DNA of 40,462 nucleotides. Origin: a virus. Shown in pieces: positions 4,349-40,462 of the stretch. Location: positions 1 through 40,462 of IMG/VR virus record IMGVR_UViG_3300018080_000063; one strand, given 5' to 3'. Each line of letters begins with the position of its first letter. The first letter of the stretch is position 1. Made by a program: the position numbers and the translations under genes. Below the pieces are notes generated by a model. The model was given only the letters and a program-made list of their open reading frames with translations. It searched no databases and had not been told where the DNA came from.

Positions 4349-5314
4349 ATGGCTAGCACTACCTTAAGCACAATAAGAGAAAAGGTACGTAAACTAACAC
4401 GTAGCCCATCAGTGAATCAGATATTAGATGACGATATAGACGAGTATGTAAATACGTTTGTTCTGTATGACATGCCATCAAGTATGAACCTAAACTCATT
4501 GCGTAAGACATTTACGTTTTTTACGCAACCATACATAGATACCTATACAACAAATACTACTGATACAACTCATCCGTTGTATAACTTTAAGAATGTATAT
4601 ACGAGTGTTCACACACCTGTTTATGTTGATGGCGCAGAATGCCCATTAGATATGTCCAGAGAGGCGTTTTTTAGTAAGTATCCATTATATACAACTATAG
4701 TCGAAGAAGGCGTTGGTGATGGCGTCACGCTTAATTTTGCGGGTACTCTTGATAGCGTTCCTGTTGTTAAAGGAGAAGTACACTTCAGTTCTATCTCTAG
4801 TAATAATGACGGGCTAGATATTTATGATAATGGTGATGGAACCATGTCAGGAACTGGCGGTACGGGAACAATAAATTATATCACTGGTGATTACACGTTA
4901 ACTTTTGGAACTGCTCCTGCAAATCTTGCAAAGATAAATGCACATTCAATCCCTTATACACCAACTCGTCCAACTGACATTCTCTTTTATCAGGATGAGT
5001 TTACTGTTAGGCCGATACCTGATGATGTGTATAGGGTTACTTTTGATGCATATGTCAGACCTACTGAGTTATTAAGCAGTACCCAGAGCCCAGATCTCGA
5101 ACAGTGGTGGGAATACATAGCTTACGGCGCATCTGTTAAGGTCCTTGAAGATAGATTGGACACTGAGGGTCTTCAGGTAATAATGCCAGCGTTCCAAAAG
5201 CAAGAGTTATTGGTTGAAAGACGTACCATTAATGAGATAAAGGATAATAAGACAGAGACTATGTACCATTATCAACTTAATGCTACGCCTAAAAACTGGT
5301 GGAATCCCTTTTAA
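4349..5314 (+). CDS. Head-to-tail adaptor protein (gp4-like position)
   Basis: This 321-aa protein is probably the ring that joins portal to tail. The N-terminal helical part (STIREKVRKLTRSP to YVNTFVLYDMP, 1-45) and the C-terminal helical part (DLEQWWEYIAYGASVKVLEDR, then VERRTINEIKD, 255-310) follow the pattern of phage adaptor proteins (helices plus the ER-R-TVN type tail). The middle (about 115-215) is a beta-rich insertion with VGDGVTLNFAG, DNGDGTMSGTGG and GDYTLTFG. Gene order (coat, ..., adaptor, gp10-like) equals that of P22 genes 5-4-10. The start is supported by AGGAG 8 bp upstream. Confidence 0.7.
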   Translation: MASTTLSTIREKVRKLTRSPSVNQILDDDIDEYVNTFVLYDMPSSMNLNSLRKTFTFFTQPYIDTYTTNTTDTTHPLYNFKNVYTSVHTPVYVDGAECPLDMSREAFFSKYPLYTTIVEEGVGDGVTLNFAGTLDSVPVVKGEVHFSSISSNNDGLDIYDNGDGTMSGTGGTGTINYITGDYTLTFGTAPANLAKINAHSIPYTPTRPTDILFYQDEFTVRPIPDDVYRVTFDAYVRPTELLSSTQSPDLEQWWEYIAYGASVKVLEDRLDTEGLQVIMPAFQKQELLVERRTINEIKDNKTETMYHYQLNATPKNWWNPF

Positions 5315-11843: not shown

Positions 11844-11853
11844 TCTATTAATG

Positions 11854-11887
11854 AGGATGGTTAATAATAGTAATCATCCTCATTCTC
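11854..11887. terminator. Hairpin after the ejection operon
   Basis: GAGGATG (11854-11860) pairs with CATCCTC (about 11875-11881) around a 14-nt loop, with a T-rich stretch (TTCTTTT) a few bases later. It would end the + strand ejection operon. Its 3' arm also lies inside the end of the minus-strand micro-gene. Confidence 0.55.
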
Positions 11888-11977
11888 ATTTCTTTTACAG
11901 CAACAGCACTTACAGCAGTCGCAACAGCTACCACCACTTAAAACAATAAGTATTAACAAAATCATTAACCAACTCAT
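11861..11977 (-). CDS. Cysteine-cluster membrane micro-protein (38 aa)
   Basis: A hydrophobic segment MSWLMILLILIVLSGG (1-16) is followed by a run holding eight cysteines in ten residues (SCCDCCKCCCCKR) and an acidic Tyr-ended tail (NENEDDYYY). The start has a GGGGGAAAAT motif upstream. Cysteine placement after a single membrane helix suggests metal binding, lipidation or disulphide cross-linking; cytosolic or periplasmic orientation is undecided. It lies 33 bp downstream of the ribbon-helix-helix gene on the same strand, so the two may be one unit. It resembles no family I can name; its real expression is not proven. Confidence 0.5.
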   Translation of the reverse strand: MSWLMILLILIVLSGGSCCDCCKCCCCKRNENEDDYYY

Positions 11978-12009
11978 ATTTTCCCCCATAATTTAGTTAA
12001 TATATTTAA

Positions 12010-12168
12010 CTATTTCTTCTCTTTCTCGACCCTATACTCTTCATGCAAACCTAAAATTATAAGCTTAGTCACGTACTCTTTAAGGCTTATCCCCTTTTGC
12101 GATGCTAATGACTTCAAATCAGTGTGAAATTGCTTATCAACATCTATCAATAATCTCTTCGGTTTCAT
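12010..12168 (-). CDS. Ribbon-helix-helix (Arc/CopG-type) DNA-binding protein (52 aa)
   Basis: The short N-terminal strand RLLIDVDKQ (5-13) is followed by two helices (HTDLKSLASQKG, then SLKEYVTKLIILGLHEEY) and a charged tail. This is the Arc/CopG/MetJ fold, with the strand contacting the major groove of DNA as a dimer. AAAGGGA precedes the ATG. It sits between the ejection genes and the first large fibre gene, where P22 has arc and mnt in immI. Likely a repressor of a nearby promoter, perhaps its own or that of the fibre gene at 12294. An antitoxin role is possible, but no toxin gene is adjacent. Confidence 0.7.
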   Translation of the reverse strand: MKPKRLLIDVDKQFHTDLKSLASQKGISLKEYVTKLIILGLHEEYRVEKEKK

Positions 12169-12187
12169 AGTAATCCCTTTATGTTTC

Positions 12188-12204
12188 ATATTTTATATAA
12201 ATAT
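12188..12204. promoter_or_regulatory. Promoter/operator region upstream of the RHH gene
   Basis: An inverted repeat ATATTT-N5-AAATAT lies 20 bp before the RHH start. On the minus strand a TTTACT-N16-TATATT pair overlaps the adjacent bases, a plausible sigma70-type promoter. The arrangement would allow autorepression by the RHH protein. The region 12169-12293 holds nothing else but the AAGGAGAAG Shine-Dalgarno of the fibre gene. Confidence 0.4.
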
Positions 12205-12293
12205 ACTAAATCAATAAAAAAAGTAAAGGGTTGTTAATTTAAATCTATATATTGGTGGTGGTTATAGTTTAATTTTTTATAAGGAGAAGCTTC

Positions 12294-29765: not shown

Positions 29766-30656
29766 TTGCAGCGTGCTAAGCATCGTGCGTTAGCTCGTTT
29801 TATAAATCAAACTTCAACATCAGTAAACGATTTAGCCCATAAGATAGACCAACTACCTGATAGCGTATTGGATGTCTTAGGATATATTTTAGAGTTGATG
29901 AAGAAATATAAGTATGCGTACCCATCTCGAGTAACGATAGGTAAAGCGGTCGGTCTCAATCCTTCTACGGTTAGCGAGAAAACAGGGATTTTAAAAGATC
30001 TTGGAATTCTTGAGGTGAAACAAAAAAATAATGATAGCAATTGTTACTACGCCACCCCACTTCTTAATGATCTTTTAAAGACGCCAGTGCTTTATAGGAG
30101 ATTTCCTCATTTAAGGTTGTTTTCTGTTGTTCTTTTGACAGCTTTTACATTATTCAATAATCCATCTAGCAACGTAAATAAGATAGACCCGACACTAAGT
30201 TTAATTAGTAAAAGGAGTTTATTAAAATATAGTTATATTAAAGAGAAAGACTTACATTGCATAAACAAAAAACAGAGCGTGAAGGCAGAAAAATTTACTT
30301 GGCAAGAATCTGGGCAGTGTAAATCTAAGTTTGTTAAAAAAAATAGTGATGGGAGAGGAGATAAAGCTGTGAATGCAGGAAAAACAGTTCCAGTAATAAT
30401 ACCACAACGCATCAAGGACGAAGATTCTTATAAATCAGAGACAGATACCTATACTAAAGAACAACGTGATCTGAAGGCAAAAGAGATAACAGCAGATCCC
30501 CTTTTAGAGATTGCTAAGTTAAGACGCATGGCAGAAAAGGAAGACTCGCCTTTTGCTATGATAAATGGGGCAGAGTACGCGAGGAAATTTTATACAGATC
30601 TAGCTAATGTAAAAGAGCAAGAGCTTATAGATAAGCTTAATAACGTGCCAGAATAG
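29766..30656 (+). CDS. Replication initiator-like protein with winged-helix N-domain
   Basis: The product is up to 296 aa, start uncertain: no ATG with a good motif is near, TTG 29766 is the first candidate and ATG 29901 (MKKYKYAYPS) a shorter one. Residues about 33-85 (VLGYILELMKKYKYAYPSRVTIGKAVGLNPSTVSEKTGILKDLGILEVK is the region) are a winged helix of the type at the N-terminus of lambda O-like and RepA-like initiators. The rest is basic and poorly ordered, as in host-helicase recruiters. It lies divergent from SSB. Phage-origin recognition and helicase loading are inferred; a transcription regulator is the alternative. Confidence 0.6.
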   Translation: MQRAKHRALARFINQTSTSVNDLAHKIDQLPDSVLDVLGYILELMKKYKYAYPSRVTIGKAVGLNPSTVSEKTGILKDLGILEVKQKNNDSNCYYATPLLNDLLKTPVLYRRFPHLRLFSVVLLTAFTLFNNPSSNVNKIDPTLSLISKRSLLKYSYIKEKDLHCINKKQSVKAEKFTWQESGQCKSKFVKKNSDGRGDKAVNAGKTVPVIIPQRIKDEDSYKSETDTYTKEQRDLKAKEITADPLLEIAKLRRMAEKEDSPFAMINGAEYARKFYTDLANVKEQELIDKLNNVPE

Positions 30657-31418: not shown

Positions 31419-31676
31419 ATGTTAAAAACAACTATATATTGGATTAAGGTTGAAGAAGAGAAGCCTGAATTGGATAGAGAGATTCTTGTTGGTCTTTATG
31501 GAGAAGGTGTGGAGGCAGGAAAGTATATCCAGCCAGGCCCAGATGAAGAGCCTGCATTCTTTGAGGCTAAGAGTGGAAGACTACTAACTAATGTAACCCA
31601 TTGGAAATATGTAGAAGATGCTGGAGTGCCAAGTTTTTTAAGAAAGAAAAGTGGGTGTAAAGATGGGGATCGATAG
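31419..31676 (+). CDS. DUF551-like small protein (85 aa)
   Basis: The protein has the DUF551 pattern YWIKVEEEKPELDREILVGL, a middle YIQPGPDEEPAFFEA and the C-terminal NVTHWKYVEDAGVPSF. AGGAGCAACA precedes the start. The last 30 residues are duplicated just after the next gene (32276-32371). Its 3' end overlaps the start of the sigma4-alphaCTD gene by 14 bp, so insertion of that gene seems to have rebuilt this end. Confidence 0.7.
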   Translation: MLKTTIYWIKVEEEKPELDREILVGLYGEGVEAGKYIQPGPDEEPAFFEAKSGRLLTNVTHWKYVEDAGVPSFLRKKSGCKDGDR

Positions 31677-32271
31677 AATAAGCTTAGATAAATGCGTTAG
31701 TAGATGCGAAAATTGTAATGCACTTTTGAAGCAATTTAAGAGCGATAATAAACTGCTTCAAATTATTTTTAATTTAAGCCATAGAGAATATAAAATAATT
31801 ATTATGCACTATGCATTAGGCTATAGTTTTGAAGACATTGCGAATATTTACCATGTAAGTATAGAACGAATTAGGCATATAGAACGAGAAGCGTTTAAAA
31901 AATTAGATTCTGAAGTTAAGTTATTAACTGGAATAGAGATTCAAGTTGATGAATGGAAAAGTTTTTTGGGAGAAAACTTATTTCGTTTACCTGGAATCGT
32001 TAAAAAAATAAAAGTTAAGCGTGAGACTAGATATTCAATAAGCGATTCTCTTGCCTTACCAGGTAAGGCAACTAAAGATTCATGTATTAAAGAGTTAGAT
32101 CTAGGTACAAGAGCTACAAATTGTTTATTATCTATCGGAGTTAAAACTGTTGGTGATTTAATAGCAACGCCTAGATGGAAGCTTACTAAAATAAAAAACT
32201 TTGGGCGAAAAAGCTTAAACAATGTGCTGCTTACTATAAGAGCATTTCAAGAAGACCAAGCGCCAGTGTGA
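31663..32271 (+). CDS. Sigma-70 region 4 / RNA polymerase alpha-CTD fusion protein
   Basis: In this 202-aa protein (ATG 31663; GTG 31651 possible), residues 38-82 are sigma region 4: LSHREYKIIIMHYALGYSFE, then IANIYHVSIERIRHIEREA and FKKL, with the ERIR-IE recognition helix. Residues 141-195 are an alpha-CTD: ELDLGTRATNCLLSIGVKTV, GDL, and KIKNFGRKSLNNV. Residues matching E. coli R265, N268, G296, K298 and S299, which hold UP-element DNA, are all present (R150, N153, G181, K183, S184). A C-x3-C-x2-C group (11, 15, 18) lies at the start. Both halves bind promoter DNA next to RNA polymerase, so it probably redirects host polymerase. It has no sigma region 2. Confidence 0.85.
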   Translation: MGIDRISLDKCVSRCENCNALLKQFKSDNKLLQIIFNLSHREYKIIIMHYALGYSFEDIANIYHVSIERIRHIEREAFKKLDSEVKLLTGIEIQVDEWKSFLGENLFRLPGIVKKIKVKRETRYSISDSLALPGKATKDSCIKELDLGTRATNCLLSIGVKTVGDLIATPRWKLTKIKNFGRKSLNNVLLTIRAFQEDQAPV

Positions 32272-38516: not shown

Positions 38517-38520
38517 TTTG

Positions 38521-38551
38521 CTGGGGGTGGGAAACTGCCCCCGGTTTTTTT
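38521..38551 (+). terminator. Rho-independent terminator after portal operon
   Basis: CTGGGGG (38521-38527) pairs with CCCCCGG (38538-38544; the outer pairs are C-G and T-G), then seven T. Classic intrinsic terminator. Confidence 0.9.
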
Positions 38552-39246: not shown

Positions 39247-39272
39247 AATCCCTCGTTTTTTTTAGTTTTTTT

Positions 39273-39570
39273 GTTGCCCCTAATTAGGCCCTAGATTGTA
39301 AGAATTCTATTAATGCTTTTTTAGGATATAAAATCTTATGCTTAAGCTTGATATATTTTGGAGAACTTCCATCTACTCTCGCTTGATAAGCCGCATTAAC
39401 AGATATATAAATTCCAAGATTTATTAGATCTTCTGAAGTTAAAAATTCAGGAAATTCTTCTATTGCTTCAGCTATATATTCTTCTATTGGCTTATCTACA
39501 TAACGTTCCATGTGCGTTTTCCTTATAGAAACTTGTTTAAGTTAGTTACCCATAATTAGACCCTACTTGA
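39273..39570. repeat. Imperfect direct repeats flanking the excisionase-like gene
   Basis: GTTGCCCCTAATTAGGCCCT at 39273-39292 (extending to about 39298) recurs as GTTACCCATAATTAGACCCT at 39545-39564 (extending to about 39570), about 20 of 26 bases equal. The left copy covers the 3' end of the gene at 39284, the right copy lies upstream of its start. They may be operators for its product or marks of an insertion. Confidence 0.55.
39284..39511 (-). CDS. Excisionase/AlpA-like HTH protein (75 aa)
   Basis: Residues 24-72 (LTSEDLINLGIYISVNAAYQ, then GSSPKYIKLKHKILYPKKAL and IEFL) follow the HTH_17 pattern LT--E---LGIS-----R--G--P-YIK----I-Y----L--FL. An acidic helix (1-20, PIEEYIAEAIEEFPEF) precedes it. 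AAGGAAAACGCAC precedes the ATG. It is the only minus-strand gene between terminase and coat and lies beside the decamer array, so it may bind there. No integrase is present, so a regulator is likelier than an excisionase. Confidence 0.7.
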   Translation of the reverse strand: MERYVDKPIEEYIAEAIEEFPEFLTSEDLINLGIYISVNAAYQARVDGSSPKYIKLKHKILYPKKALIEFLQSRA

Positions 39571-39581
39571 GTTTCAAAAAA

Positions 39582-39671
39582 CATTCAATCTCATTCGAAC
39601 TCATTCGAACTTATTCAATCTTATCCAATCTCATTTAATCTTATTCGAACTCATTCGAACTCTTTTAAGCT
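39582..39671. repeat. Iteron-like array of eight 10-bp repeats
   Basis: From 39582 to 39661 decamers run without gaps: CATTCAATCT, CATTCGAACT twice, TATTCAATCT, TATCCAATCT, CATTTAATCT, TATTCGAACT, CATTCGAACT; a degenerate ninth (CTTTTAAGCT) follows. Two sub-types (TTCGAACT and TCAATCT endings) alternate. Ten-base spacing presents the same bases on one side of the helix. It lies in a 462-bp gene-free region. It may be a replication origin, a partition-like or regulator-loading site. Confidence 0.8.
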
Positions 39672-39707
39672 TGCACGGAATAAAAGTTCTAAAGTCGTCC
39701 GATTGGG
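39670..39707. repeat. 38-bp direct repeat, copy 1
   Basis: CTTGCACGGAATAAAAGTTC and the following 18 bases to 39707 (AAAGTCGTCC-GATTGGG) recur at 39852-39889 with four differences. Copy 1 abuts the decamer array. The pair brackets about 144 bp of non-coding DNA containing an AGGAAT/ATTCCT hairpin (about 39709-39732). Confidence 0.75.
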
Positions 39708-39851
39708 TAGGAATAACAGGAAAAATTCCTCTCACCACGTAGGAAAAGTTAAAAAAAGAATTTGGGTACGAAAAATATTTATACTTTCAATCTCCCAAAG
39801 ATGCCCACTGTAGGCCATTTATTGGCAACTCTTTAAAGAAATACAGCTAAA

Positions 39852-39889
39852 CTTGCACGTAATAAAAGTTCTAAAATCGTCCTGTTGGG
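39852..39889. repeat. 38-bp direct repeat, copy 2
   Basis: The second copy of the element at 39670-39707 lies about 85 bp upstream of the gene at 39974. Both copies have the same orientation and are 182 bp apart. They could be phage promoters or regulator sites, since one precedes the scaffold-coat unit; no sigma70 consensus is evident inside them. Confidence 0.75.
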
Positions 39890-39973
39890 GTACCCATAAG
39901 AGACTAGTTTCGAACTTTACTAAGTTGTTATATAGTAAGGTTGTTTTATCTATAACCCTTTTAAAGGAGCTTA

Positions 39974-40462
39974 ATGGAAGATAAGAAAACAGTCGGTCAG
40001 GCATCGCTCGATCTACTTAACAAAGACCCAGATACTCAAGATCCTATTGAACTACAACGCGCTATTGATCATGACTATGAAGAACAGATAGTAATATGTG
40101 CAGAGAGAGGTAAAAAACTCTACGAGGGGGACTTTTATATCGTTGTTGGTATAAAGAGAGAGCGGCTCCTTAAAAATGTCATTAGAAGGCAAATATTCCA
40201 TCGCTCTACCTGCCCTACACCTCAGAATGATCAAACAGTCTATAAGTACCACAAAAACGGTGACCGTATTGAATTCCTATGGGTAATACCATCACTTGAT
40301 ACTTGTATGACCTTTGTAAATGATGCTCATAATGTTGCTCCAGAAGAATGGGATCTTCTTAAGTTTGTTTTAGAGTTTGAAGATGGAACACTGCTTAAGA
40401 AAGCTAAGAAATTGAACAATGAATTAACCGATGAGTCCTATATCATTAAGATTGAAGGAAAC
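39974..40462 (+). CDS. Unknown phage protein between portal and scaffold (163 aa, spans circular join)
   Basis: The start ATG has AAAGGAG 7 bp upstream. The protein begins MEDKKTVGQASLDLLNKDPD. It has YEEQIVICAERGKKLYEGDF and YIVVGIKRERLLKNVIRRQI, and a C-terminal half with RIEFLWVIPSLDTCMTFVND and FEDGTLLKKAKKLN. The stop is supplied by bases 124-126 after circularisation, overlapping the scaffold start. Conserved position before scaffold suggests a minor head or regulatory role. No motif is recognised. Confidence 0.75.
   Translation, partial: MEDKKTVGQASLDLLNKDPDTQDPIELQRAIDHDYEEQIVICAERGKKLYEGDFYIVVGIKRERLLKNVIRRQIFHRSTCPTPQNDQTVYKYHKNGDRIEFLWVIPSLDTCMTFVNDAHNVAPEEWDLLKFVLEFEDGTLLKKAKKLNNELTDESYIIKIEGN
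40340..40462. repeat. Terminal direct repeat (copy of 1-123)
   Basis: All 123 bases equal those at 1-123. Such a short exact overlap inside a coding gene is the usual sign of a circular assembly graph cut at one point. It therefore marks a complete genome of about 40,339 bp rather than a biological terminal repeat, though a short true redundancy cannot be excluded from sequence alone. Confidence 0.9.

Follow-up and report, generated by a model that had tools for sequence, protein, structure and literature searches.

An array of 10-bp direct repeats in front of the head gene cluster of an uncultured phage, read tentatively as an operator

The stretch of DNA analysed here (the window, 40,462 nucleotides, comprising IMG/VR record IMGVR_UViG_3300018080_000063) is apparently a complete phage genome. 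Its first 123 bases are identical to its last 123, with the start of the window recurring at position 40340, and the contig therefore closes to a circle of about 40.3 kb. The gene content includes a P22-type portal, terminase, major head protein, RusA and Erf as well as an SSB and an initiator-like gene, the latter two in agreement with the original prediction made for this DNA. A Cro-like protein (28547) and a MerR-like protein (30683) are encoded as well. Only distant relatives of the portal were found in phage records (21-24% identity among the matches listed, none covering 80%), and a host search with the portal profile yielded no match in 297 genomes from the phylum of genome G001 or in the genome contigs scanned. 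IMG/VR, on the other hand, holds at least 367 matching stretches, 80 of which were fetched. Gene order in this family is conserved as terminase, portal, variable cargo, 163-aa protein, scaffold and major head protein, and the 163-aa gene was found in 64 fetched relatives with the order unchanged.

The region of interest is a gap of 462 bp (39512-39973) with divergent flanks, a gene for a 75-aa protein running leftward and the 163aa-scaffold-capsid cluster running rightward. In the gene set used here it is the longest gene-free stretch of the genome, as had been proposed, followed by 11844-12293 with 450 bp (12 bases less). No DNA relatives of the array region were detected in phage or plasmid records. 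The features of the gap and its borders are the following:

39284-39511, minus strand: putative winged-helix/HTH_17-like protein of 75 aa, candidate binder, its start codon separated from the array by 70 bp
39542-39565, plus strand, and 39270-39293: 24-nt direct repeat, 83% identical, at opposite ends of the 75-aa gene
39582-39661, plus strand: decamer array, eight contiguous units in a 10-bp register
39662-39671, plus strand: degenerate ninth array unit, CTTTTAAGCT
39666-39707, plus strand: 42-nt direct repeat, copy 1, with one change in the dispersed motif (AAAGTTCTAAAGTCGTCC)
39848-39889, plus strand: 42-nt direct repeat, copy 2, 88% identical, with the exact dispersed motif (AAAGTTCTAAAATCGTCC)
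39865-39918, plus strand: 54-bp imperfect inverted repeat, AAAGTTCTAAAATCG...TTTCGAACTTT, the end of which is the fifth TTCGAAC
39909-39936, plus strand: promoter-like TTCGAA-16 bp-TATAGT, a consensus match only, containing the fifth TTCGAAC
39974-40462, continuing at 126, plus strand: 163-aa protein conserved in the family, with its gene at the head of the 163aa-scaffold-capsid cluster

Elsewhere in the head region, an insert of about 207 nt (1514-1722) separates the two parts of the major head protein gene, 1193-1513 and 1723-2361. Many relatives have inserts at a comparable position; the head-protein region of L083 gave a weak group I intron match, while the insert of the window gave none. 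Upstream of the same gene (1050-1130) lie two to three tandem units of 23-28 nt with the consensus GNCGTANAGAGACTCGTCANCTC and possible hairpins. They had no Rfam match at the gathering threshold, and units of this type are present in at least seven relatives (L005 6896, L016 9097, L020 14761, L022 7951, L028 14831, L030 5114 and L031 8792). With regard to the terminase, the large subunit is interrupted by an apparent intein in L066 (2505-4889) and a terminase with an intein-like end is encoded in L044 (92-1471); this may also explain why the terminase match is split in further relatives.

The eight units of the array read, in order, CATTCAATCT, CATTCGAACT, CATTCGAACT, TATTCAATCT, TATCCAATCT, CATTTAATCT, TATTCGAACT and CATTCGAACT. 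Tandem Repeats Finder describes 39582-39662 as 8.1 copies of period 10 and also as three copies of period 30. Self-matching at period 10 amounts to 62/80 over 80 bp, whereas 46 was the highest value that 30 genomes simulated with a third-order Markov model reached at any period between 4 and 60. The decamer array is thus real and far above chance, and the gapless arrangement of eight decamers in perfect 10-bp register, as first described, is borne out. The units fall into types a (YATTCGAACT), b (YATYYAATCT) and c (CTTTTAAGCT) that follow each other as b a a b b b a a c, i.e., in blocks and not in alternation as had been stated, with units 2-3 repeated as units 7-8 at an offset of 50 bp. Columns T3, A7, C9 and T10 are invariant in 9/9 units, while positions 6 and 8 co-vary. 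The period corresponds to one helical turn, but at 10.0 bp per unit versus 10.5 bp per turn the exposed face shifts by about 17 degrees with each unit, so that the repeats describe a slow spiral; of the single protein-binding face over eight turns that had been envisaged, the one-turn period holds and the exact single face does not. A coding origin of the array was dismissed, as open frames across a stop-free repeat are uninformative, and a structured RNA was rejected after Rfam gave no match in the array gap.

None of 48 further family records, each scanned along its full available length, contains the array, and this includes L073, the one relative that keeps the 54-bp element. L002 was the only locus found with the 163-aa protein as query (58% identical), and its corresponding gap is short. 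An exact pair of decamers had no match in viral contigs, the window's own record left out. Being present in none of the other family records searched, the array is not a conserved operator; it is private to this genome and either recent or fast-evolving.

Tandem arrays of other kinds do occur in the family. In five relatives (L040 9366, L052 126, L058 346, L075 7434 and L078 1900), units of 21-22 bp are found outside long open reading frames, and the portal gene follows some 0.3-1 kb downstream. L084 carries, at 4816-4853 and just downstream of a small open reading frame resembling an HTH gene, 3.5 copies of the 11-bp unit AAAGTTCCGAT, in which GTTC recurs every 11 bp in the manner of GTTC-N7-GTTC boxes.

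The heptamer TTCGAAC occurs five times in the 40-kb genome, in all cases on the plus strand and within the 39512-39973 gap. Four copies lie in the array and one, at 39909, overlies the promoter-like site in front of the 163-aa gene. By simulation, the chance of finding a fifth copy in the 372 non-array bases of the gap is 0.017, a value calculated post hoc. A TTCGAA-based scan of the gap returned this promoter candidate (39909-39936) as the only one, while a general sigma-70 scan gave no site in the gap and a total for the region that did not exceed chance. A terminator-like hairpin at 38520-38545 lies upstream of the array gap, and the head genes therefore probably need a promoter within it. 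The 54-bp inverted repeat that ends in the fifth TTCGAAC is conserved in L073 (4435-4488), where 42/54 positions (78%) are identical and the element is likewise located upstream of the 163-aa gene; the two 163-aa proteins are 42% identical. The TTTCGAACTTT end of the element is identical in L073, and the -10 sequence of the promoter-like site is not conserved there.

As predicted, a gene adjoins the array, while the assignment of its product to the HTH proteins is weak: the 75-aa protein resembles HTH_17/MerR-type small proteins in a sub-threshold match only (HTH_17, E = 0.03, below the cut-off of Pfam). A low-confidence structural model (pLDDT 58.6) has the order helix-helix-strand-strand-helix. 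A fold search with this poor model gave no significant match, with BldC chains among the weak ones (E 6-10), and a second fold comparison gave no Z >= 2. Two homologues of the protein are encoded in the family, in L008 and L018, and no array was found beside either of them.

Cooperative head-to-tail binding to direct repeats about one turn apart has been described for 186 Apl, P2 Cox, lambda Xis, BldC and RdfS (PMC7498355; PMC5859096; PMC11963761). The operators of Apl, seven at pR-pL and five at attP with a spacing of 10-11 bp (PMC7498355), resemble the array in being five to seven serial direct repeats in a phage control region; here, by comparison, eight gapless units follow an exact 10-bp period, no integrase was recognised in the part of the gene set scanned and the neighbouring protein is weakly related to HTH_17. 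BldC of Streptomyces, a MerR-like winged-helix protein of 68 residues, binds head-to-tail to direct repeats of varying number, e.g., at whiI and smeA-ssfA (PMC5859096), and in this its operators are similar. They differ in the consensus, AATTXXXX(C) for BldC (PMC5859096) versus TTCGAAC/TTCAATC here, and the fold match is not significant.

With eight units at exactly 10 bp, the array lies within the 9-11 bp spacing of direct repeats taken here as a mark of operators for winged-helix proteins of the Xis/Cox/Apl/BldC type. Our best reading, held tentatively and at somewhat less than an even chance, is that it constitutes an operator acting in cis and composed of direct repeats spaced by one turn. 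The one-turn spacing, the private heptamer at the promoter-like site and the nearby gene for a putative winged-helix protein fit a protein-binding function; the original interpretation is thus partly supported, in its binding array and not in its origin. The array would be occupied by several molecules of a small winged-helix regulator, arranged head to tail in a short nucleoprotein filament. We infer that the regulator is most likely the 75-aa protein encoded leftward beside the array. Such a filament would regulate the leftward promoter from which this gene is expressed, and it may help to set the output of the rightward 163aa-scaffold-capsid promoter, where the single TTCGAAC overlaps the promoter-like sequence; the direction of any such effect is conjectural.

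The strongest rival to an operator is neutral tandem expansion, in which a TTCGAAC-like sequence lying in a repeat-rich patch would have been multiplied by slippage or unequal duplication into a functionless array. The privacy of the array among the family records searched speaks for it, as does the richness of the gap in other duplications (42-nt, 24-nt, 16-nt and 12-nt pairs), the block-wise duplication of the sub-types, in which positions 6 and 8 vary jointly, and the presence in relatives of unrelated short arrays with units of 10-25 bp at different positions. Against these points stand nine diverged units that nevertheless show no indel, a perfect register and four invariant columns, a period of one helical turn, and the presence of TTCGAAC at the promoter-like site and nowhere else outside the array. 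On balance, we regard expansion devoid of function as unlikely, albeit as an explanation to be taken seriously.

A further explanation starts from the repeats that flank the array. A direct-repeat pair of 38 bp had been noted beside it; the pair exists, its copies measuring 42 nt at 88% identity. Both copies contain a 19-bp element, AAAAGTTCTAAAATCGTCC (39683-39700 and 39865-39882), the core of which a pattern scan located at unrelated places in three further viral contigs of the family (L073, L083 and L084), and the exact 19-mer was found in a fourth viral contig (L125). In bacterial genomes, one contig gave a match, and when 200 genomes of the family of that contig were searched for the 19-mer with at most one mismatch there were 51 matches in 31 genomes versus four for the reversed control. 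The element extends to about 32 bp in the Acidobacteriaceae, where AAAAGTTCTAAAATCGTCC continues as NCTAGGGCCGACCA; the consensus of 45 copies is AAAAGTTCTAAAATCGTCCNCTAGGGCCGACCA. A plasmid of Candidatus Manganitrophus (Nitrospirota) carries AAAAAGTTCTAAGATCGTCCATGAAGGCCAGCCA between genes, and the loci recorded for the element include those in L085 and G079 and L150 (1501-1541). E. coli genomes gave no match. In G079 the element adjoins palindromes and is once situated 160 bp before a transposase-like open reading frame that we read as a RAYT-type transposase. This arrangement and the intergenic dispersal of the flanking-repeat sequence in Acidobacteriaceae are reminiscent of REP/RAYT-associated repeats, from which the phage differs in having only two copies and no recognised RAYT. 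Readings of the element as tRNA, CRISPR repeat or integron attC were considered by eye and not supported, and a literature text search for the 19-bp string returned nothing relevant. The gap might hold a phage-borne member of this dispersed element, and the array might be an outgrowth of the TTCGAAC arm in the inverted-repeat version of the element, serving as a platform for an element-recognising protein. We consider this reading improbable. No good counterpart of the decamer array was found in the element-bearing genomes of the Acidobacteriaceae.

As a replication origin, the decamers would serve as iterons for the phage initiator (29766-30656). The phage possesses initiator-like and SSB genes, and like the iterons of plasmid and phage origins the decamers are direct repeats in non-coding DNA. 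They differ in length, 10 bp versus the 17-22 bp given for iterons in the original prediction, and the array lies between head genes and far from the replication genes. The detrended GC-skew minimum, proposed as a check, falls at 30198 inside the initiator-like gene and not at 39.6 kb, in a skew whose range does not reach significance when blocks are shuffled (p = 0.12) and is in part an effect of gene orientation. The surroundings of the initiator gene yielded no family of iteron-like repeats. With 69% AT (86th percentile) the array is not unusually AT-rich, the 90-bp segment with the highest AT content in the window starting at 12163, and the curvature predicted for the array by a dinucleotide wedge model is ordinary over 63-84 bp. 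Together with the absence of the array from the relatives tested, nothing points to it as a replication origin; the assignment is not supported, we judge it quite improbable, and the array is most likely the landing strip of a regulator instead.

An extended upstream element for late transcription would also be a binding site, in this case for the phage protein at 31651-32271 that fuses sigma-70 region 4 (E 5e-10) with an RNA polymerase alpha-CTD (E 4.6e-16). The existence of this protein and the reappearance of the TTCGAA core as a -35-like hexamer at 39909 are in line with such a role. The array, however, precedes the promoter-like site by some 255-325 bp and TTCGAA occurs in no other intergenic gap of the genome, which leaves this explanation very improbable. 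Even less can be said for an attachment site, in which the 75-aa protein would act as excisionase and recombination directionality factor and the array as attP arm: the repeat spacing is that used by Xis, Cox and Apl (PMC7498355) and the protein is Xis-sized, but the genes scanned (part of the gene set) included no recognised integrase, and the chance is slim. Scarcely credible is a role in partition or segregation, with the phage being plasmid-like and the array comparable to ParR or omega repeats. Short contiguous repeats do adjoin a small putative DNA-binding gene and the genome maps circular, yet ParA, ParM or TubZ-like genes were not recognised among the genes scanned, again part of the gene set.

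Apart from the array, the flanking repeats reveal a dispersed 19-bp element that phages have in common with bacteria from at least two phyla. As for the operator that we favour, if the 75-aa protein binds the array, an uncultured phage family would provide a case of compact, gapless one-turn direct-repeat control, and with it a pointer to how the expression of head genes may be set.
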